A stretch of DNA of 42,613 nucleotides. It comes from Nitrospira lenta (GTDB taxonomy: Bacteria; Nitrospirota; Nitrospiria; Nitrospirales; Nitrospiraceae). The first letter of the stretch is position 1. Each line of letters begins with the position of its first letter. The position numbers were made by a program, and so were the translations under genes. The notes below the pieces were generated by a model. The model was not told the DNA's origin and did not search any database. It saw only the letters and a program-made list of their open reading frames with translations. Location of the stretch: positions 1 to 42,613 of the forward strand of contig CAMDPZ010000014.1 of assembly GCA_945905765.1 (NCBI GenBank). Reading direction: 5' to 3'. Of this stretch, positions 1-22,463 are shown in pieces.

Positions 1-1295
1 AAGGCCCCTTGATTCTCTTCCAACATCTGACGAGCCGACCGGCCCATTCGCTCCCGTTCCTCGTGATTGGCAAAGAGGCCGATGACTTGTTGCGTGAGAT
101 CCTCCGCCGTGGACACGCGGCGCCCCCCTCCCGCCTGGATCAAGAGGTCTGCAATCTCCGCACAGTGATCGGTGTAGGGACCGAACAGGACCGGCTTCGC
201 CCACTGAGCCGGCTCCAGCAAATTATGTCCTCCCACCGGAACGAGCGTGCCTCCGACGAACGCCACCACCGCTTCCCGGTAGATCGTAGCCAACTCGCCT
301 CGCGAATCGAGCAGCAACACGCGGGGACCGATAGGCCTCAGCACGCCTGCCCGCCCAATCGTACTGCATCGCTGCACCGCCAGCCCCTTTGCCAGAACCA
401 TCGCCTCCACCGACTCAGCCCGCTCAATATGCCGAGGAGCCAGCAATAACACCGCTGAGGGATAGCGGGCCGCAAGCGCATGATAGCAGTCCACCAGAAT
501 CTCTTCCTCTACCGGATGGGTGCTGCCTGCGACAAACAACTGTTCCGTCTCTTGCAGACCCAAACGGACCCTCGTCGATCCATCCTCCAGCACAACCGGT
601 ATCGGCTGATCGAACTTGATATTCCCCGTCCGCCTCACACGCGATACCTCCGCTCCCAAGGCTACAATCCGCTCGACATCCCGATCTGACTGCATCAAAC
701 AGAAACTAAGCCCCTGCAACATCGTCCGATAGAACGATCGCACCGGCGCCCATTGCTGCCTGGCAAAAGACCTGGTCGAGAGCCGCCCATTCACGAGGAC
801 CGTCGGTGTTCCACGACGACGCAGTTGCCACAAGAGATTCGGCCAGAGTTCTGTCTCGACAAAAAGATAGAGGCGAGGTTGCAGTCGTTCGATAAAGCGG
901 GAGACGACCCAGGGGAAATCGAGCGGCGCGTAACAATGGTCGGCCACGCCGGCCAACCGCTGCTCTACAGCTTCCCGTCCCGTCTCGGTCACAGTCGAAA
1001 CCACTAAACGGCAGTCGGGATGGCGGCGAGACAGTTCCTTCACGAGCGGTGTGACCGCCACCACTTCCCCGAGAGAAACCGCGTGGATCCAGATGACTGG
1101 TTTATCTGGTCTGTCCGGTTCGTTTGGTCTGTCTGGTTGACCCGATCGACCAGATAGACCAGAAAAACCGGATAGACCTCTCCCCCACCCGAGCCTTTCC
1201 AGCAATCCTCGGCGACACCGCTGTTTCGCCAGCAGGACCGCCAGGATGGCCGGAGACAGGAGCAGGAGCACAATATTATAAAAGAGACGCCACAT
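1..1295 (-). CDS. waaA: 3-deoxy-D-manno-octulosonic acid transferase (Kdo transferase), 3' end beyond window
   Basis: Transfers Kdo from CMP-Kdo to lipid IVA at the inner-membrane cytoplasmic face (GT30 family). The frame is open from ATG 1295 to the window edge, so the C-terminus is missing. Visible: an N-terminal hydrophobic anchor (about residues 5-23), the HAVSLGE block whose Glu (about residue 77) matches the family catalytic base, ETELWPNL, the NGRLS motif, and the nucleotide-binding GGTLVPVGGHNLLEP block with FGPYTDHC. Residues about 39-66, between the anchor and HAVSLGE, are a tripeptide-repeat insertion encoded by a 9-bp array (1097-1178); E. coli WaaA has a shorter loop there. Last readable gene of the envelope operon. 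The start lacks a clear Shine-Dalgarno. Family assignment is secure. Confidence 0.95.
   Translation of the reverse strand, partial: MWRLFYNIVLLLLSPAILAVLLAKQRCRRGLLERLGWGRGLSGFSGLSGRSGQPDRPNEPDRPDKPVIWIHAVSLGEVVAVTPLVKELSRRHPDCRLVVSTVTETGREAVEQRLAGVADHCYAPLDFPWVVSRFIERLQPRLYLFVETELWPNLLWQLRRRGTPTVLVNGRLSTRSFARQQWAPVRSFYRTMLQGLSFCLMQSDRDVERIVALGAEVSRVRRTGNIKFDQPIPVVLEDGSTRVRLGLQETEQLFVAGSTHPVEEEILVDCYHALAARYPSAVLLLAPRHIERAESVEAMVLAKGLAVQRCSTIGRAGVLRPIGPRVLLLDSRGELATIYREAVVAFVGGTLVPVGGHNLLEPAQWAKPVLFGPYTDHCAEIADLLIQAGGGRRVSTAEDLTQQVIGLFANHEERERMGRSARQMLEENQGA
1097..1178. repeat. Inverted array of 9-bp GGTCTGTC-like units inside waaA
   Basis: On the plus strand, TGGTCTGTC-type 9-mers run from 1097 to 1140 and their reverse complement (GGTCTATCC-type) from 1147 to 1178. 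The period is exactly 9, so the waaA frame is kept. Read on the minus strand the first arm gives four Gly-x-Ser tripeptides and the second gives Gly-Gln-Pro followed by Asp/Asn-x-Pro tripeptides. The same unit recurs at 9286-9381 and 21605-21755. Confidence 0.9.
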
Positions 1296-6076: not shown

Positions 6077-6180
6077 TGATGGGTGATGAGTGACGAGTGA
6101 TGAGACGAGATGAAGAAAAGAGGCGCAGTGGCTCGCTTCTTTGCCAGGCACTCGTCACGCATCACGGCTCACCCATCACG
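6077..6180. repeat. GTGATGAG-type inverted array between lpxI and the oxidoreductase
   Basis: Plus-strand arm GATGGGTGATGAGTGACGAG-like (6077-6108) faces its inverted counterpart (6149-6180) across a 40-nt loop. On the minus strand the second arm encodes the last residues of LpxI (Val-Met-Gly-Glu-Pro) and its TGA stop at 6162. Confidence 0.8.
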
Positions 6181-7823: not shown

Positions 7824-7834
7824 GATTAACCTCC

Positions 7835-7915
7835 GGTGATGAGTGATCGGTGATGAGTGATCGGTTCCGGGCAACTGCTTCCCCATGAAAACTCGTCACA
7901 CATCACGCGTCACCC
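7835..7915. repeat. GTGATGAG-type inverted array between fabZ and lpxA
   Basis: Arm 7835-7866 contains two copies of GGTGATGAGTGATC. The inverted arm 7891-7915 (ACTCGTCACACATCACGCGT-like) lies 24 nt away. On the minus strand the second arm encodes the last residues of FabZ (Lys-Gly-Asp-Ala) and its TGA stop at 7903. The first arm ends beside the GGAGG of lpxA. Confidence 0.8.
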
Positions 7916-8721: not shown

Positions 8722-9258
8722 CTACTTGTTCTGCCGATCGAACTCCTTCACCAGCTGATCGGTCACATCCAGCGCAGGCTGATGATAGAGAACAATCTTG
8801 ATCGCCGCCTCGCTTCCCTTATCCAGGATCGCGGCATAGCCGTTCTTTTCCGCCACGGCCTGCGCCGCCGCATGCACTTTCTTCGAATACTCCGCCACCA
8901 TCTCACGCTGTTTCTGCTGAATTTCGCGGTTAAAATCGGCCAGCCGGCGTTGATAGGCCTCCAACTTGGACTGGAACTGATTTTGCTTTTCCTGCCTTGC
9001 GCTATCGGTCAACTTCCCGTCCTGGATCTTCTGTTCCAATTCCTTCAACTCCAGATCGTCGGCATTGATGATCTTCTGCCTGGTCGAGGAATAGGCCTTG
9101 AGCTCTTCCAACGCGCGCTTGCCGGTCTTCGACTGTTCGATCACCGCTTGCTGATCCATCACCCCGACTTTGAAGGCTTCAGCCGACAACCCCGGCAAGA
9201 CCATTGCCAGCCACAGACCCACGGCACCGATCACACCGGCCACTTTTATTCGCTTCAT
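8722..9258 (-). CDS. OmpH/Skp-family periplasmic chaperone
   Basis: Skp-like trimeric chaperone for unfolded outer-membrane proteins on their way to BamA. 178 residues, normal length. A signal peptide (about 1-26, cleavage near LSA/EA) precedes a small beta domain starting FKVGVMDQQAVIEQSKTG. A long charged coiled-coil region (about 50-130, rich in K/E/Q) follows, and then the C-terminal strand region (GYAAILDKG...VTDQLVKEFDRQNK). It is the second of two tandem family members and lacks a lipobox, so it is the soluble one. The start has a purine-rich stretch (GAGGAGG) upstream. Followed at once by a long hairpin. Confidence 0.93.
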   Translation of the reverse strand: MKRIKVAGVIGAVGLWLAMVLPGLSAEAFKVGVMDQQAVIEQSKTGKRALEELKAYSSTRQKIINADDLELKELEQKIQDGKLTDSARQEKQNQFQSKLEAYQRRLADFNREIQQKQREMVAEYSKKVHAAAQAVAEKNGYAAILDKGSEAAIKIVLYHQPALDVTDQLVKEFDRQNK

Positions 9259-9285: not shown

Positions 9286-9381
9286 CGTCTATCTAGTCTG
9301 TTCGGTCTATCCGGTCTGTCTCGTGCAGTGACGATCTCCGAATCAAGCGACAAAACAGACCGAACAGACCAGACAGACGAG
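9286..9381. repeat. Inverted array of 9-bp GGTCTGTC-like units between the two skp genes
   Basis: Arm 9286-9323 carries CGTCTATC/TAGTCTGTT/CGGTCTATC-type units. The inverted arm 9348-9381 carries the complements, separated by 24 nt. It fills most of the 124-bp gap between the two ompH/skp genes and ends two bases before the upstream gene's TAA (9383-9385). Confidence 0.9.
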
Positions 9382-9382
9382 A

Positions 9383-9931
9383 TTACGGATATTCACGATT
9401 GAATTCCTCGATCACGTGGCCGGTGATATCGAGCCCCTCCTCGTTGTATAAGGTAGGGCCGCCCTTCCCCTTATCCATAACGATTTGCAACCCGAGGCGC
9501 TTCGACACTTTCCCCACGACCAGCTCCACCTTTTCACGGAACCCTTCCAGCACGTCCTTTTGCTTCTCCTGAACCTCCCGGTTCATTTCGCCCGCTTTCT
9601 GCTGGTACTCCGCCATCCGGCGCCGAAACAATTCTTCACGCTCACGTTTCGCGGGCGCACTCAAGACACTGGCCTGCCGCCCAAAATCTTCTTCCATCCG
9701 GCGAAGCTCTTTTTCCTCTATCTCAATCAAGGCCTGGCGATTCTTGGAAAACGCGCCCAGGGACTCCTTCGCCTTTTTCCCGGCGTTCGTCTCGCTCAAG
9801 AGACGGGCCGGATCGACAACTCCTACGGTCCCTTGAACCTTCACCCCGCCTGCAGCACAGCCGGCCACGGCCAAGCTCATCACTAGACAGATCGTGGCCA
9901 GCACGGTTTTGAATACATAATCAGCTCGCAT
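9383..9931 (-). CDS. OmpH/Skp-family protein, predicted outer-envelope lipoprotein
   Basis: 182 residues from ATG 9931, preceded by GAGAGGTAGGGG. This start gives a compact signal sequence ending in AVAGC, a lipobox with Cys 25 as predicted lipidation site; the longer frame would place about 31 unlikely residues before it. The mature part shows the OmpH/Skp pattern: VGVVDPARLLSET, a long coiled coil (KRE/EELRRM-rich, about 60-130) and a C-terminal GLQIVMDKGKGGPTLYNEEGLDIT. Classical Skp is soluble; a lipidated paralogue beside BamA could act tethered to a membrane. Forty bases separate it from bamA. Confidence 0.88.
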   Translation of the reverse strand: MRADYVFKTVLATICLVMSLAVAGCAAGGVKVQGTVGVVDPARLLSETNAGKKAKESLGAFSKNRQALIEIEEKELRRMEEDFGRQASVLSAPAKREREELFRRRMAEYQQKAGEMNREVQEKQKDVLEGFREKVELVVGKVSKRLGLQIVMDKGKGGPTLYNEEGLDITGHVIEEFNREYP

Positions 9932-9971
9932 CACACCCCTACCTCTCGCACATAACCATGCCCTGCTCCCC

Positions 9972-12299
9972 CTAGAACAGAGAGCCCATCGTAAACTCGA
10001 ACACCCCTTCACGCTCACCTTCACGCGGACTCAAATTGAGCCCATAGGCTGCCCGCAAGGGGCCGAACGGTGAAATCCATCGTCCTTCGATGCCAGCCGT
10101 TTTCCGTAACTTAAACGACACGGACTCGTTGTCGTCGAAGCCCTTTCCGTAATCAAAAAAGATCACCCCGTTCAACTTCGCCTCGGAGGAAATCGTAAAG
10201 ATGAAATCATTATTAAAAATCAGCTCTTTGGTCGCGCCAAGCAGCGTCTGACCGGTGGTGACAGGCCCCGCCTGCCCGAACACGAACCCGCGCATCGTAT
10301 TGATACCTCCAACGAAATACCGTTCGGTCAGAGGAATCGGCTTCCCATTGATGCCCTCTGCAGCGCCAAAGCGCCCATGGATCGAGAATCGCGTATCAAA
10401 CGGGAGCGGGGTGTACTTGATCACGTCCAGAGTATATTTATAAAAATCGTTGGACCCCCCCAAATAAGGCGTGCCCAGATCGAAGCCAACGGAGGTGCGC
10501 CAGCCGGTACGGGGATCCAAATAATAGTCTCTGGTGTCGCGGGCCAGCGAGGTCCGGAACCCGGTCGTCGTCTGATTTCCGAGCTGCCGGCAGACCATCG
10601 GGAACACATCAGGGCAAATCCCTTCTTGAGGATCGCTGAAGTTCAACTGTTCCGCAAACAAGCTCACGCTGCCCGAGGCATATTCAGAGAGCCATCGAGA
10701 AAACGTCATGCTGGCGCCGGACTTTTTCTCGAAATAGGTCATGTAGTTGGTCATGCTGCGATAGACATCCAGCTGCATCGACGTCAGGGAATCGTTTAAA
10801 TAGGGATTGCGGAAGGTCACCAACCCCAAGGTCCGCTGCTGTCCCAACTGACCACGGATTCGCCCCATCCAGCCGTTCCCGCCGAGGTTGCCCTCTGTAA
10901 TATCGGCAATCGCAACCAACTTGTCCAAGGTGCTGAATCCGCCGCCGACACTGAATTGGCCGGTCGGCTTTTCTTTCACGCGGACGTTGAGATCGACCTT
11001 ATCAGGACCGACCTGCGCGGGAAGGATTTCCACCGTCTCGAAGAAGTTCAGGTTGTTGAGCCGCTGGAAGCTCCGTTTCAACGAGGGAGTATCGATCACG
11101 TCCTGCTCATCGACGCGGACTTCCCGGCGGATCACATTATCTTTGGTCTTGTCGTTCCCATTGATATTGATCTGGCGGATCCGCATCATCTCCCCCTCCT
11201 TGATGGTCAGGGTGATGGTGGCGGTCCGGTCTTCCGGATTCGGAGTCACCGAGGGGGAAGCATCGGCAAAGGAGTACCCCTTGCTTCCGTAGAGATCGTT
11301 CAACCGGGTAATCTCGTCACGGATTTTCTGCCGCTGAAAGATCTCCCCCTCTTTAATCTTGAGCCCCTCGCGCAGCTCCGGATCTTCAAATACTGTGTTC
11401 CCGCGGAACCCGACTTCGGCCACGGTGAACGGTTCTCCCTCCATCACCGTGTAGGTCACGGTAAACCATTTTTTGTCCTCGCTGAGCTCCACCGTCGGCA
11501 ACCCGACCTGGATATTCAGATAGCCTTTGTTGAGCAAGATCTCCTTGATCCGCTCGGCGTCGTTATTCATTTCCTCCCGCTTCAGCACGCCGGCATCCGA
11601 AAGGAACGACGGCAACTTCATCTGTGAAAACGGACCGTGCCAGGGCACCCATTCCCGCGTCGCCATCACCTTGAACAGCTCGTCTTTCGTCGCCGCGAAC
11701 AGGCCGTCAAAGTTGACTTTCTTGACGCGCGCCTTGCTCCCCTCTTTCACGAAAAACGTCAGCCGCTTCCGATCCTCGTCCAAAGTCTGCACGATCGGGG
11801 TCACATGGCAATCGAAGTAGCCGTCTTCCTGATAGGCCAAACGAATCTTTTCCGCGCTTTCTTTGGCCTGAAGCTGATCGAGAAAGGCCTGGCTTTTGAT
11901 CGTGATCTTCTCTTTGAGCTTGTCATCGCTCAGTTCTTGATTCCCGTCGAAGACAATCTCGGTGATAAACGGCTTCTCGCGAACCAGAAAGGCCAGAGCC
12001 ACCCCGCCGGCTCCCGGCTCTGTCTCCAGCTGCACATCTTCAAAGAACCCCGTCTCGTAGAGAATTTTGATTTGGCCCCGGACATTTTCAGGGGTATAGG
12101 GATCGCCCGGCTTCAAGGTCAACCGTCCGGCAATCGCCGGCAACTCGATCCGTTTATTGCCCCGGATCTCGATCGCCGTAACTTTCACCCCGACCTGTTC
12201 CGCTGCGACCACCAGCATCGGCAGAGACCCGCAGAACAAGGCGACAAGTAACAGGACCAGGAACCAACGAGACCCTGAGAAGCCGTGCGTCATCCTCAT
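9972..12299 (-). CDS. bamA: Outer membrane protein assembly factor BamA
   Basis: Omp85 family; central component of the BAM complex that inserts beta-barrel proteins into the outer membrane. 775 residues. Signal peptide about 1-33 (VVAA/EQ), then five POTRA domains (about 36-430; the first begins VTAIEIRGNKRIE), then a 16-strand barrel. The barrel has the conserved MRGF motif of the substrate/lid loop (INTMRGFVFG) and ends in Phe (FEFTMGSLF), the outer-membrane beta signal. First gene of the envelope operon, 173 nt downstream of its predicted transcription start. ATG 12299 overlaps the stop of a possible 37-codon upstream frame. Confidence 0.97.
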   Translation of the reverse strand: MRMTHGFSGSRWFLVLLLVALFCGSLPMLVVAAEQVGVKVTAIEIRGNKRIELPAIAGRLTLKPGDPYTPENVRGQIKILYETGFFEDVQLETEPGAGGVALAFLVREKPFITEIVFDGNQELSDDKLKEKITIKSQAFLDQLQAKESAEKIRLAYQEDGYFDCHVTPIVQTLDEDRKRLTFFVKEGSKARVKKVNFDGLFAATKDELFKVMATREWVPWHGPFSQMKLPSFLSDAGVLKREEMNNDAERIKEILLNKGYLNIQVGLPTVELSEDKKWFTVTYTVMEGEPFTVAEVGFRGNTVFEDPELREGLKIKEGEIFQRQKIRDEITRLNDLYGSKGYSFADASPSVTPNPEDRTATITLTIKEGEMMRIRQININGNDKTKDNVIRREVRVDEQDVIDTPSLKRSFQRLNNLNFFETVEILPAQVGPDKVDLNVRVKEKPTGQFSVGGGFSTLDKLVAIADITEGNLGGNGWMGRIRGQLGQQRTLGLVTFRNPYLNDSLTSMQLDVYRSMTNYMTYFEKKSGASMTFSRWLSEYASGSVSLFAEQLNFSDPQEGICPDVFPMVCRQLGNQTTTGFRTSLARDTRDYYLDPRTGWRTSVGFDLGTPYLGGSNDFYKYTLDVIKYTPLPFDTRFSIHGRFGAAEGINGKPIPLTERYFVGGINTMRGFVFGQAGPVTTGQTLLGATKELIFNNDFIFTISSEAKLNGVIFFDYGKGFDDNESVSFKLRKTAGIEGRWISPFGPLRAAYGLNLSPREGEREGVFEFTMGSLF

Positions 12300-19138: not shown

Positions 19139-20149
19139 TTATTCCCTGACTGGAAGAGCTTGTGAGGCTGACGCAGGTTCAGAAACGGGAGCTGCTACAG
19201 GGGTAGAAAGCGTTGCACTGCTCTTGAACGGTAGATCCAGCAACGTATAGGGATTCACTCTGGCGCCGTTGAGCTTGACGCCCCAATGGAGATGCGGGCC
19301 GGTGGCGCGGCCGGTGGCTCCCACCTTGCCGATGATTTGCCCGGCTGTGATCAGGTCTCCGTCTTTGACCAGAATCTCAGACAGGTGAAAGTACATCGAG
19401 TAGAAGCCCAGGCCGTGATCGACGAAAACACCCCTGCCGGAGAAGATGTGATCGACGGTGATGCGGACGATTCCGTCATTCGTGGCTGCGACATCGGCTC
19501 CCATCGGCGCGCCGATATCCTCTCCATTATGGGGATTACGCGGCTTGCCGTTCATGATCCGCACGCTGCCAAAAATGCCGGTGCGTTTGCCGTTGACCGG
19601 CTCCACGAAATTGCTGTGCCAGAGTTTCAGGCGTGAATTCTCCGCCAGCGCTTGTTTCACCTGCGCCTGCTCGGCTTTCCAGCGGGCCACAGCCTTCTCG
19701 TCCAGATCGACCTTCTCTTTGGGCAGCTTCAGATGTTCGACGGCGAACTTCTCTTTGGCCACCAAGACATTGAAGCTCAACTGCTTCGCCTGTTCCCCCT
19801 GCTTCACTTCCACGGCCAGTTCATAGGTCCCGGGATCGTCCTGCATATCGATCCCCAACAATCCGACATAGCCAGCCGGCTCCCCTGGCCTGAACTCACG
19901 GAAGAAGGGAATCGTCCGATCGAGGAATGTGCCGGTCACCTCCGTCGCCTGCTCTTCGCCCTTCACCTTGACCACCAGCACCTGCCCCTGCTTGCCGCTA
20001 TATTGTCCATCCAGGCCCTTCGGCGGAGGCGGCGTATTGGGAAACAACTCGACAGGGAAGACGCTGGAGAGCAACACGACGGCCATAATCATCATCCGGT
20101 CCAGTCGCGAGATCCGTAGCTGCGCCTGTTTGAGAGCGGTCATCATCAT
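19139..20149 (-). CDS. M23-family metallopeptidase (LytM domain), coupled to pafA
   Basis: 336 residues. An N-terminal hydrophobic segment (about 19-36) directs it to the periplasm. An Ig-like/beta-rich middle (about 48-130) and a short helical linker precede the LytM domain. The zinc ligands and catalytic His are intact: His 207 and Asp 211 (NPHNGEDIG), His 255 (YFHLS), His 286 and His 288 (GPHLHWG), so an active peptidoglycan endopeptidase is expected, unlike EnvC in this window. The start overlaps the pafA TGA in a repeated ATG run (ATGATGATGA), implying translational coupling. A peptidoglycan enzyme in a proteasome operon is unexpected. Confidence 0.92.
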   Translation of the reverse strand: MMMTALKQAQLRISRLDRMMIMAVVLLSSVFPVELFPNTPPPPKGLDGQYSGKQGQVLVVKVKGEEQATEVTGTFLDRTIPFFREFRPGEPAGYVGLLGIDMQDDPGTYELAVEVKQGEQAKQLSFNVLVAKEKFAVEHLKLPKEKVDLDEKAVARWKAEQAQVKQALAENSRLKLWHSNFVEPVNGKRTGIFGSVRIMNGKPRNPHNGEDIGAPMGADVAATNDGIVRITVDHIFSGRGVFVDHGLGFYSMYFHLSEILVKDGDLITAGQIIGKVGATGRATGPHLHWGVKLNGARVNPYTLLDLPFKSSATLSTPVAAPVSEPASASQALPVRE

Positions 20150-21540
20150 CGGTAGAGCCTCAATCCCGACACCTGAGAGACCAACTCATCCACGCGCCGA
20201 TTCACGGCGCTGAAGGGGTCCATGCAGAGTATCGTTTCTTCCCAATAGCCGTTGAGTTTCAAATAGGTCCAGTCCACCGTATAGGAACGATTCTTCGCGC
20301 GGGCGAACCGGATGAAATCGCCTCGCACCTTCGCCCTCGTGGTCTGAGGCGGAGTTGACATGGCCCGCTGCACCGATTCCTCCGCTGCGACCCGTTCGAT
20401 CATCCCACGGGACTCCATCAGATAATACAACCCACGCGTCCGTTTGACATCATGATATTGCAGATCGAGCAGGAAGACTCGTGGGTCGTCCCAGCCACAG
20501 CCCTTTTTGTCGATATAGGACTGGATGAGATGCCTCTTGGTCACCCAGTCGATTTCGCGCACGAGCTGCATCGGATCGTCTTCCAGCTTATCCAGCACCA
20601 TGGCCCACCGTTTCCACACATCGTCGAGAATCGGATCATGCTCCTGTTGCGCTAAATATTGCTGCGCCCGATCCAAGTAAACCCGCTGCACCTCTACTGC
20701 CGTCAGCTGGCGACCGTCGTCCAGCCTGACTTTCTTCTTCAAGGAAGGATCGCGTGAAATCTCCCTGATCGCTTTCACAGGATCCTCTAACTCCATCCCT
20801 TGAACCACATATCCTTCCTCGATCATCGACAGGACCAGCGACGCCGTGCCGACCTTCAAATAGGTCGCGAACTCCGACATATTGGAATCCCCGACGATGA
20901 TATGGAGCCGCCGGTAGCGCTCCGCGTCGGCATGAGGCTCGTCCCTGGTATTGATGATGCTGCGCGAGGACGTGGTCGAGGACGAGGTCTTTTCGTGAAT
21001 ATGTTGGGCTCGTTGCGAGATGAAATACTGAGGCTTGCCGGAAACTTTCAGCACTTTCCCCGCCCCGCTGTAGACCTGGCGCGTCACGAAAAATGGGGTG
21101 AGCTGCTCCGTGACTTTCCAGAAATCGACATCCCGGCGCATCAGGAAGTTTTCATGGCAGCCGTAGGTATTGCCCAGCGAATCCGTATTGTTCTTGAAAA
21201 TGTAGATTTCCCCGGACAGCCCCTCTTCCCGCAGCCGTTCTTCCGCCGCAGGCAGACAGGCTTCGAGGAGCCGCTCACCGGCTTTATCGTGAATGACGAG
21301 ATCGAGAATGTTGTCGCACTCGGGAGTGGAATACTCGGGATGACAGCCAGTGTCTTGATAGAAGCGCGCGCCGTTCGCGAGAAAGGCGTTGGAGGGCCAG
21401 CTGTTGGGAATGAGTCCTTCGAAGATATAGCCCAGCACCTTCTCCATCGGCAGGTACACACGCCCATTCGGAGAGAAGATGAGCCCGTACTCATTCTCCA
21501 AACCGAAGATCCGTTGTTTCAGAGGACCGGCTTGTAGCAT
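20146..21540 (-). CDS. pafA: Pup--protein ligase (proteasome accessory factor A)
   Basis: Activates the C-terminal Glu of the small modifier with ATP and joins it to substrate lysines, marking them for the proteasome. 464 residues from ATG 21540; actinobacterial PafA is about 450. Visible: QRIFGLENEYGL at the N-terminus, catalytic Asp about 63 in FYQDTGCHPEYSTPECD, IYIFKNNTDSLGNTYGCHEN, INTRDEPHADAERYRRLH, TEIDWV-like REIDWVTKR and DLQYHDVKRTRG. It lacks the long Dop loop, which separates it from dop. The frame continues upstream to 21648 but that part is 9-bp array DNA. The Shine-Dalgarno is weak. Confidence 0.94.
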   Translation of the reverse strand: MLQAGPLKQRIFGLENEYGLIFSPNGRVYLPMEKVLGYIFEGLIPNSWPSNAFLANGARFYQDTGCHPEYSTPECDNILDLVIHDKAGERLLEACLPAAEERLREEGLSGEIYIFKNNTDSLGNTYGCHENFLMRRDVDFWKVTEQLTPFFVTRQVYSGAGKVLKVSGKPQYFISQRAQHIHEKTSSSTTSSRSIINTRDEPHADAERYRRLHIIVGDSNMSEFATYLKVGTASLVLSMIEEGYVVQGMELEDPVKAIREISRDPSLKKKVRLDDGRQLTAVEVQRVYLDRAQQYLAQQEHDPILDDVWKRWAMVLDKLEDDPMQLVREIDWVTKRHLIQSYIDKKGCGWDDPRVFLLDLQYHDVKRTRGLYYLMESRGMIERVAAEESVQRAMSTPPQTTRAKVRGDFIRFARAKNRSYTVDWTYLKLNGYWEETILCMDPFSAVNRRVDELVSQVSGLRLYR

Positions 21541-21604
21541 GTGCGTACAGACAGGATACCAGCCACCCCAGCCTTCTTCAACAGAAGGATCAGATCTGGA
21601 GATG

Positions 21605-21755
21605 CGGTCTATCTGGTCTGTCCGGTCTGTCTGGCTGCTGGGAAGCATGGCGAGACGAGCGGGAAAGGCGGGACTAGTTAGAGTGGTCTTTCTGATCGAT
21701 CAGGCCAGTCTGGTTCAACCAGATAGACGAGATAGACCGAACAGACCAGATAGAC
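21605..21755. repeat. Inverted array of 9-bp GGTCTGTC-like units between prcA and pafA
   Basis: Arm 21605-21634 has three to four (C/T)GGTCT(A/G)TC units. The inverted arm 21719-21755 has four, and the loop is 84 nt. It occupies most of the 236-bp gap between the prcA stop (21777) and the pafA ATG (21540), in which I find no small modifier gene and no convincing promoter. Confidence 0.9.
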
Positions 21756-21776
21756 AAAATGGACCGCAGGGACAAG

Positions 21777-22463
21777 TTATGGAGAGAGAAGCTGTTTCGT
21801 GTCGGCAGCCGATAGGCGTCGGAACCGCCGGCCCTCGCGGGTGCGGTCCAGCACCGCGACTTCCAGACTCTCCAGCGAAAGCTTCTGGCTCCCGATTTGT
21901 TCGAGCGAGGAGATGCAGAGAGAAAGGGCTTCGCGCAGGTCCGGAGGCTTCGTCAGACCCTTCTCTTTTAACAGAGCCTGAATAGCCTCAGCCTTGCCTC
22001 CGATGACCGCAAAGGTGCGCTCGTCGATGATGCTCCCATCGAAGGAAATACGATACATCTCGTTGGCATGGCCGTTGTGCCCGACTTGCACGACCAGAAT
22101 TTCCACCTCCAGAGGCTTCTGCTCCTGGCTGAAAATGGTGCCCACGCTTTGCGAATAGCCGTTCGCCAACGAGCGGGCCGTCACGTCTTCCCTGCTATAC
22201 ATGAAGCCCTTGAGGTCCGCATGTCTGATGCCGGCCTTCCGGAGATTTTCGAACTCGCTATACTTGCCGGCCCCGGCGAAGGCGATACTGTCGTAGATCT
22301 CGGAAATTTTATACAGAGAGGCGCTGGGGTTCTCCGCCACGAGGAGAATCCCGTTCACATATTCGATGGCAATGATGGAACGGCCTTTGGCGATGCCCTT
22401 CTTGGCATACTCCGCCTTGTCCTGCATCATCTGCTCGGGCGAGACGTAATAGGGCAACGGCAT
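21777..22463 (-). CDS. prcA: 20S proteasome subunit alpha
   Basis: Alpha ring subunit that gates the 20S chamber and docks the ARC ATPase. 228 residues. The N-terminus MPLPYYVSPEQMMQDKAEYAKKG is the gating/H0 segment of bacterial PrcA. KGIAKGRSIIAIEYVNGILLVAEN follows, with the fold's conserved GAGKYSEFENLRKAGIRHADLKG. It lacks the catalytic Thr, as expected. Two bases separate it from the prcB stop, with GGAGAG as ribosome binding site. Confidence 0.95.
   Translation of the reverse strand: MPLPYYVSPEQMMQDKAEYAKKGIAKGRSIIAIEYVNGILLVAENPSASLYKISEIYDSIAFAGAGKYSEFENLRKAGIRHADLKGFMYSREDVTARSLANGYSQSVGTIFSQEQKPLEVEILVVQVGHNGHANEMYRISFDGSIIDERTFAVIGGKAEAIQALLKEKGLTKPPDLREALSLCISSLEQIGSQKLSLESLEVAVLDRTREGRRFRRLSAADTKQLLSP

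Follow-up and report, generated by a model that had tools for sequence, protein, structure and literature searches.

Short tandemly repeated repetitive (STRR) sequences are dispersed, short-period tandem repeats located between genes. Heptameric repeats with the same properties are found in cyanobacteria, Xanthomonas and Beggiatoaceae (TAACTGA repeats, PMC4679880). Dispersed palindromes, which also occur in frame within intact genes, are represented by the palindromic elements of Rickettsia and Wolbachia (RPE and WPE), whose insert is carried at corresponding places by orthologues (PMC3767692, PMC6649704). REP sequences are short palindromes located closely behind stop codons (PMC12306157), and N. 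moscoviensis is counted by RepRanger among the REP-bearing genomes. The arms of coding inverted repeats in nematomorph mitochondria evolve together, a behavior attributed to template switching (PMC6649704); template switching is also documented as homogenising inverted-repeat arms in yeast coding sequences (PMC8604942), and as acting on RNA stems (PMC8794818).

The window analysed here, i.e. the whole 42,613 nucleotide stretch from Nitrospira lenta, contains three palindromic clusters of a 9-bp unit, one of which lies in frame within waaA. The relevant features are the following.

3-1295, minus strand: waaA (Kdo transferase), truncated at its 3' end by the contig boundary after 431 codons
1099-1178, minus strand: palindromic 9-bp array, in frame, corresponding to WaaA residues 40-66 (GLSGFSGLSGRSGQPDRPNEPDRPDKP)
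1143-1178, minus strand: four GGT-type units encoding Gly-x-Ser, which form the 5' arm on the coding strand
1099-1143, plus strand: 3' arm on the coding strand, read as Gln/Asp/Asn-x-Pro; five GGT-type units on the plus strand
1227-1292, minus strand: WaaA residues 2-23, N-terminal membrane helix in the structure model
1065-1085, minus strand: HAVSLGE motif, residues 71-77, start of the catalytic domain
9286-9379, unstranded: intergenic array copy, starting about 3 bp past the stop codon of an OmpH-like gene (9383-10024, minus) and before another OmpH-like gene (8722-9258, minus)
21606-21765, unstranded: array copy between prcA (21777-22463, minus) and pafA (ORF 20146-21648, minus)

The waaA array is built from a 9-bp unit, a GGTCTGTCT-like arm being followed by its reverse complement, and is translated in an open frame as nine tripeptides, GLS GFS GLS GRS GQP DRP NEP DRP DKP. 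The original prediction had described an intergenic-type array in frame inside waaA, its tripeptide reading (Gly-x-Ser, GQP, Asp/Asn-x-Pro) and the presence of the same unit at two intergenic sites. The reading proved correct, with residue numbers off by one at most, and the same three clusters were recovered; third-order Markov controls of the window produced 0.2 clusters per window, none of them palindromic. RNA folding of the waaA array gave -46.4 kcal/mol, corresponding to a z of -5.6 against 200 dinucleotide shuffles, while the intergenic copies at 9286-9379 and 21606-21765 gave z values of -4.0 and -7.7. In the pafA ORF neighboring the latter, the match to the PafA profile begins only at residue 45.

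The gene product was assigned to WaaA on the basis of its Glycos_transf_N domain (Pfam PF04413, E 1.5e-64), a PDB homologue and the conserved catalytic motifs; it scores below the NCBIfam equivalog cut-offs, since the contig ends within the gene. In the AlphaFold2 model (pLDDT 82 overall), residues 40-59 fall below 50 and are flanked by helix 2-23 and by strand 67-71, the first of the glycosyltransferase fold, and the alignment with the Aquifex structure 2xci starts at residue 57 (E 7.6e-36). The low pLDDT and the alignment start thus suggest that the array encodes a variable tether sparing the catalytic domain, a predicted disordered connection to the membrane helix, and so probably free to vary. 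The proposed location of the array, in a tolerant linker between membrane anchor and catalytic segment of an unbroken gene, is supported, and the length of the linker differs among relatives (12 to 46 residues). Upstream of waaA, at 1370-1430 of the window, a different palindromic repeat was observed (AGTTCGAAGTTC ... GAACTTCGGACCTCGAACT), of a type (GTTCGAAGTTCGGGG) which is periodic, at 7 bp, in the relative G002.

A genome search with the 9-mer, suggested together with the original prediction, returned 168 matches at no more than 2 mismatches, some of them not real, and established that the repeat is dispersed. In the Nitrospira lenta stretches examined, 22 palindromic arrays were found, all of them intergenic or at gene edges with the sole exception of the one in waaA; a simple gene finder had set the waaA start behind the array, and this start was corrected by comparison with orthologues. 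Among the 32 palindromic arrays in 400 kb of G002, a stretch that is 77% coding, 30 are intergenic and the other 2 touch the edges of predicted genes; not one is located within a gene. The median distance from an array to a gene 3' end is about 21 bp, compared to 236 bp for random intergenic placement. The GGT-arm precedes the ACC-arm in 54/54 arrays from the Nitrospira lenta genome and G002, and the inter-arm phases of these arrays, nearly all non-coding or at gene edges, are distributed 24/15/15. Five palindromic arrays, including those in waaA and waaF-gmhB, were found in 400 kb of N. moscoviensis. In the literature searched, which comprised few subscription journals, these Nitrospira arrays were not described.

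Other repeats were also observed near gene ends. TGATGAG / CTCATCACTCATC heptamers are found in the window at 2118-2150, 6077-6104 and 7834-7865, and TGATGAG-type heptamers form palindromic 7-bp arrays in N. moscoviensis. At 3274938-3275009 of the same genome (L289-L306 region), a one-directional 9-bp array of 8 units extends over the predicted 3' end of the long gene 3272490-3275069 and is possibly a coding, C-terminal copy.

WaaA sequences were collected from 23 genus-mates, 40 family members of 19 further genus codes, seven more of g15 and 80 named loci. Both arms were found in 41 of the 116 distinct linkers, one arm in 4 and none in 71; array-bearing linkers range between 21 and 46 residues, array-free ones between 12 and 16 (21 in three genus-mates). 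The waaA array is present in the complete genome of the isolate N. moscoviensis (NZ_CP011801, L194), which excludes an artefact of metagenome-bin assembly, and absent from N. defluvii (FP929003, L241). Site and frame are the same in 41/41 distinct array-bearing linkers, with the 5' arm read as Gly-x-Ser/Phe; the inter-arm phase is 2 mod 3 in all 41, the frame of the 3' arm being as fixed as that of the 5' arm. Loop codons, e.g. RRPD, are common to different genera, and the frame is open in all array-bearing orthologues examined, except one with a later stop. Judging from these sequence comparisons, the array is old and common to many genera of Nitrospiraceae, and is no recent, private insertion in the window. 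The idea that a repeat had entered the gene harmlessly, giving a new segment, is therefore retained for the harmless entry and abandoned for the newness, since many genera share the array at the same site and frame. A segment conserved in both sequence and length, which would have indicated an ancestral linker, did not turn up among the relatives.

Some of the collected loci deserve separate mention. An internal TAA shortly past HAVSLGE in the waaA of L031 (G017:C39:7723-9012) denotes either a broken gene or a sequencing error. L187 and L204, titled Hyphomicrobium sp. and Nitrosospira sp., hold Nitrospira waaA loci and are likely mislabelled or contaminated bins.

A second coding site was identified in many relatives, in a gene lying outside the window, where heptosyltransferase II (WaaF) is fused to the heptose bisphosphate phosphatase GmhB. 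The fusion gene begins roughly 2 kb downstream of the end of waaA and, like waaA, is an outer-membrane sugar gene. The 9-bp array is located in frame at the WaaF-GmhB domain joint in 31/31 distinct array-bearing sequences. Its inter-arm phase is 1 mod 3 (31/31), versus 2 mod 3 in waaA, indicating an insertion separate from the one in waaA. In genomes without the 9-bp array, the joint is often filled by other periodic palindromes, with fold z down to -5.3, some of them forming a weak hairpin or none: GGGGTGAGGGG/CCTCACGCC in L172, GGCGAGG in L178, GGCAGAA in L236. The joint of the Nitrospira lenta genome itself (G000:C58) lacks the 9-bp array and carries ILKSESLKSEDPGRV. In g16, the largest genus sampled, several genomes have 0-2 strict dispersed matches and yet hold whole or partial arrays in the joint (identity matched by coordinates), which suggests that arrays within genes persist longer than the dispersed family. 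Directly 5' of waaF-gmhB, an array at 7670-7773 of L175 is maybe read into the N-terminus (SGWSGLFSSFSSFGLFRSKTPNK...).

On a WaaA tree, built leaving the linker out of the alignment, array presence cannot be explained with fewer than 10 changes, and strongly supported branches force 7 of these; such a scattered presence would mean repeated loss, repeated gain or horizontal exchange. Recurrent insertion, by which hot or permissive linker codons would have received many independent landings of mobile copies, or swaps between lineages by recombination, would account for this scatter, for the different palindrome families occupying the waaF-gmhB slot, even within one genus, and for the pair L193/L212, which is array-bearing inside an array-free clade and divergent around the array. 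However, within each gene all copies read both arms in the same frame, and loop codons cross genera, features better explained by an old resident allele, subject to repeated loss or horizontal spread, than by many landings; we therefore regard recurrent insertion as rather unlikely, while keeping it under serious consideration.

Between the close relatives L193 and L212, identity is 85-88% in the flanks extending some 100 bp from the array in each direction and 96-98% elsewhere in waaA, for which local hypermutation and recombination are candidate causes. A donor for this array was sought by similarity profiles, which displayed local divergence and no donor. A strict coupling of the waaA array with dispersed arrays was also considered; it was good in a first sample and was then broken by G102 (= L202) and G156 (= L204; matched by coordinates), in which dispersed matches are present and waaA is array-free.

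The array units come in two flavours, GGTCTGTCT (C) and GGTTTGTTT (T). Alignment of related WaaA proteins, also suggested at the outset, revealed length steps which are multiples of three residues within each unit type: linker lengths are 0 mod 3 residues in 15/16 C-type linkers and 2 mod 3 in 12/14 T-type ones. The existence of one length class per type implies that, for a given type, linkers gain or lose complete 9-bp units. The flavours of the arms agree in 30/30 tree members with both arms; each arm requires 9 flavour changes on the tree, or about nine joint switches, and in 6/6 independent pairs (starred branches) the change was joint (p 0.031). Intergenic arrays show far less agreement (rho 0.23 and 0.46), so that the agreement in genes may partly reflect peptide selection or shared ancestry. 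Exchange of an entire array for another copy could also produce joint change; waaA loop sequences are almost never found among the intergenic arrays sampled.

Unit type in waaA tracks the genome type (rho 0.77). Genome-wide homogenisation of unit type was considered and dropped, because type correlates with local GC content (rho 0.61-0.71) and mixed genomes exist: L170, L174, L181 and L188 combine a C-type waaA array with a T-type gmhB array. Given these mixed genomes, homogenisation would act within the single array.

The coding arrays were also evaluated for palindromy exceeding the needs of the protein. By a palindrome alignment score, the DNA of waaA arrays is more palindromic than its synonymous recodings, with a median z of 4.5 and p<0.05 in 27/30. 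This score was used in place of folding energy, for which the same comparison yielded no excess (median z -0.28) and is uninformative, because recoding raises GC. Codon choice is equally distinctive: GGT accounts for 91/107 Gly codons in linkers versus 140/823 downstream, and CCA for 124/148 Pro codons versus 42/550. Gly and Pro codons in the linkers follow the repeat, not the gene. This codon usage and the palindromy beyond the protein argue against an ancestral functional linker, selected for its Gly/Ser and Asp/Pro composition and resembling the intergenic repeat by chance or convergence, as do the near-zero chance expectation and the fact that, across genomes, the waaA array is mostly accompanied by dispersed arrays. 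Such a linker would agree with the soluble composition and with the 5' arm being read in the GLS frame in both waaA and waaF-gmhB; taken together, we consider it extremely improbable.

Pairing might instead be selected in the transcript, where a hairpin would slow ribosomes in the first part of waaA and at the WaaF-GmhB domain boundary, tuning expression or co-translational folding. The strong hairpins, the joint arm changes and the palindromy exceeding protein demand are all compatible with this function, and REPs located just behind stop codons are reported to stall E. coli ribosomes (PMC12306157). On the other hand, the 71 waaA linkers without array, versus 41 with it, are short and unrelated, which makes the hairpin not essential; loops and stem lengths vary freely, and the waaF-gmhB slot accepts repeats with weak or no hairpin. 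A selected mRNA hairpin is for these reasons improbable.

The explanation that we favor, and hold to be probably correct, is that a dispersed palindromic array of REP-like type has one of its copies in the coding sequence of waaA. This copy would be tolerated at the linker and held in frame by selection, while slippage and template switching would preserve the palindrome. The array normally resides between genes, mostly right behind stop codons, with coding copies in the anchor-catalytic linker of waaA and, in relatives, also at the waaF-gmhB joint. Slippage in replication would add or drop 9-bp units, i.e. three codons, never shifting the frame; template switching at the hairpin would overwrite one arm with the other, so that the two halves of the linker change jointly; protein selection would ask solely for an open, soluble and flexible linker. 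Joint arms, extra palindromy, repeat codons and within-array homogenisation form the pattern expected from template switching in replication. The position and frame of the array, its stepwise lengths, the joint arm change, the intergenic preference and the predicted disorder rest on observation, while slippage and template switching are the presumed mutational causes; the linker is presumably neutral or mildly useful, and the mode of first arrival is likewise presumed.

A broader proposal is put forward tentatively, as conceivable but somewhat doubtful. Several short-period palindromic families of Nitrospiraceae (9-bp GGTCTGTCT and T-type variants, 7- to 8-bp ones) may have been repeatedly swapped through the same in-frame domain-joint slots, codon-commensurate periods and hairpin-templated copying being a continuing source of flexible linkers, with coding copies outliving the dispersed family.

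The hairpin palindrome, the dispersal in genome and family, the age, the joint arm evolution and the second slot in waaF-gmhB go beyond the original prediction. The interest of the waaA array is in palindrome maintenance and slot re-use, rather than in the novelty of the event. Outside Rickettsiales, and traced across many genera, it exemplifies how a dispersed palindrome of intergenic regions can serve as protein sequence. Two genes, dozens of genomes, array-bearing and array-free alleles and several repeat families per slot are natural replicates, which allow testing whether linker evolution is driven by mutation (slippage, template switching) and not by protein selection. They also carry a warning: joint changes at distant residues, or compensatory hairpin pairs, are possible without selection for interaction or RNA structure.

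Compared to the known systems, the Nitrospira arrays differ from heptameric repeats and STRR sequences, whose period is 7, in having a period of 9, in being palindromic and in being read in frame through two genes. With REP sequences they share the extragenic location (PMC12306157), coding copies being exceptions, and the nature of short repeated palindromes with a common motif, although they are about 60-120 bp long versus 14-40 nt for E. coli REPs; unlike REPs, they are built from tandem 9-bp units and are unlinked to RAYT-type Y1 transposases. The Y1/RAYT family PF01797 is absent from array-bearing genomes, N. moscoviensis and the Nitrospira lenta genome included (G000, G024, G026 and the complete G086), while two Y1 (RAYT) transposases are found in the array-free N. 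defluvii (G048); mobilisation by a RAYT/REP system was discarded for lack of this association. Nematomorph repeats show the same joint arm evolution, but are perfect, up to 284 bp long and mitochondrial, whereas the Nitrospira arrays are degenerate, tandem and bacterial. RPEs, 100-150 bp long and frequent in coding genes, differ from tandem arrays of a 9-bp unit, near-strictly intergenic except for two neighboring genes, and do not change length in codon-sized steps as these do; the two arms of an RPE reportedly become less alike with age (PMC6649704), while the Nitrospira arms stay concordant. One dispersed element is nevertheless found both between genes and in frame within genes, and by analogy the Nitrospira array would work like the Rickettsia palindromic elements, its closest precedent.
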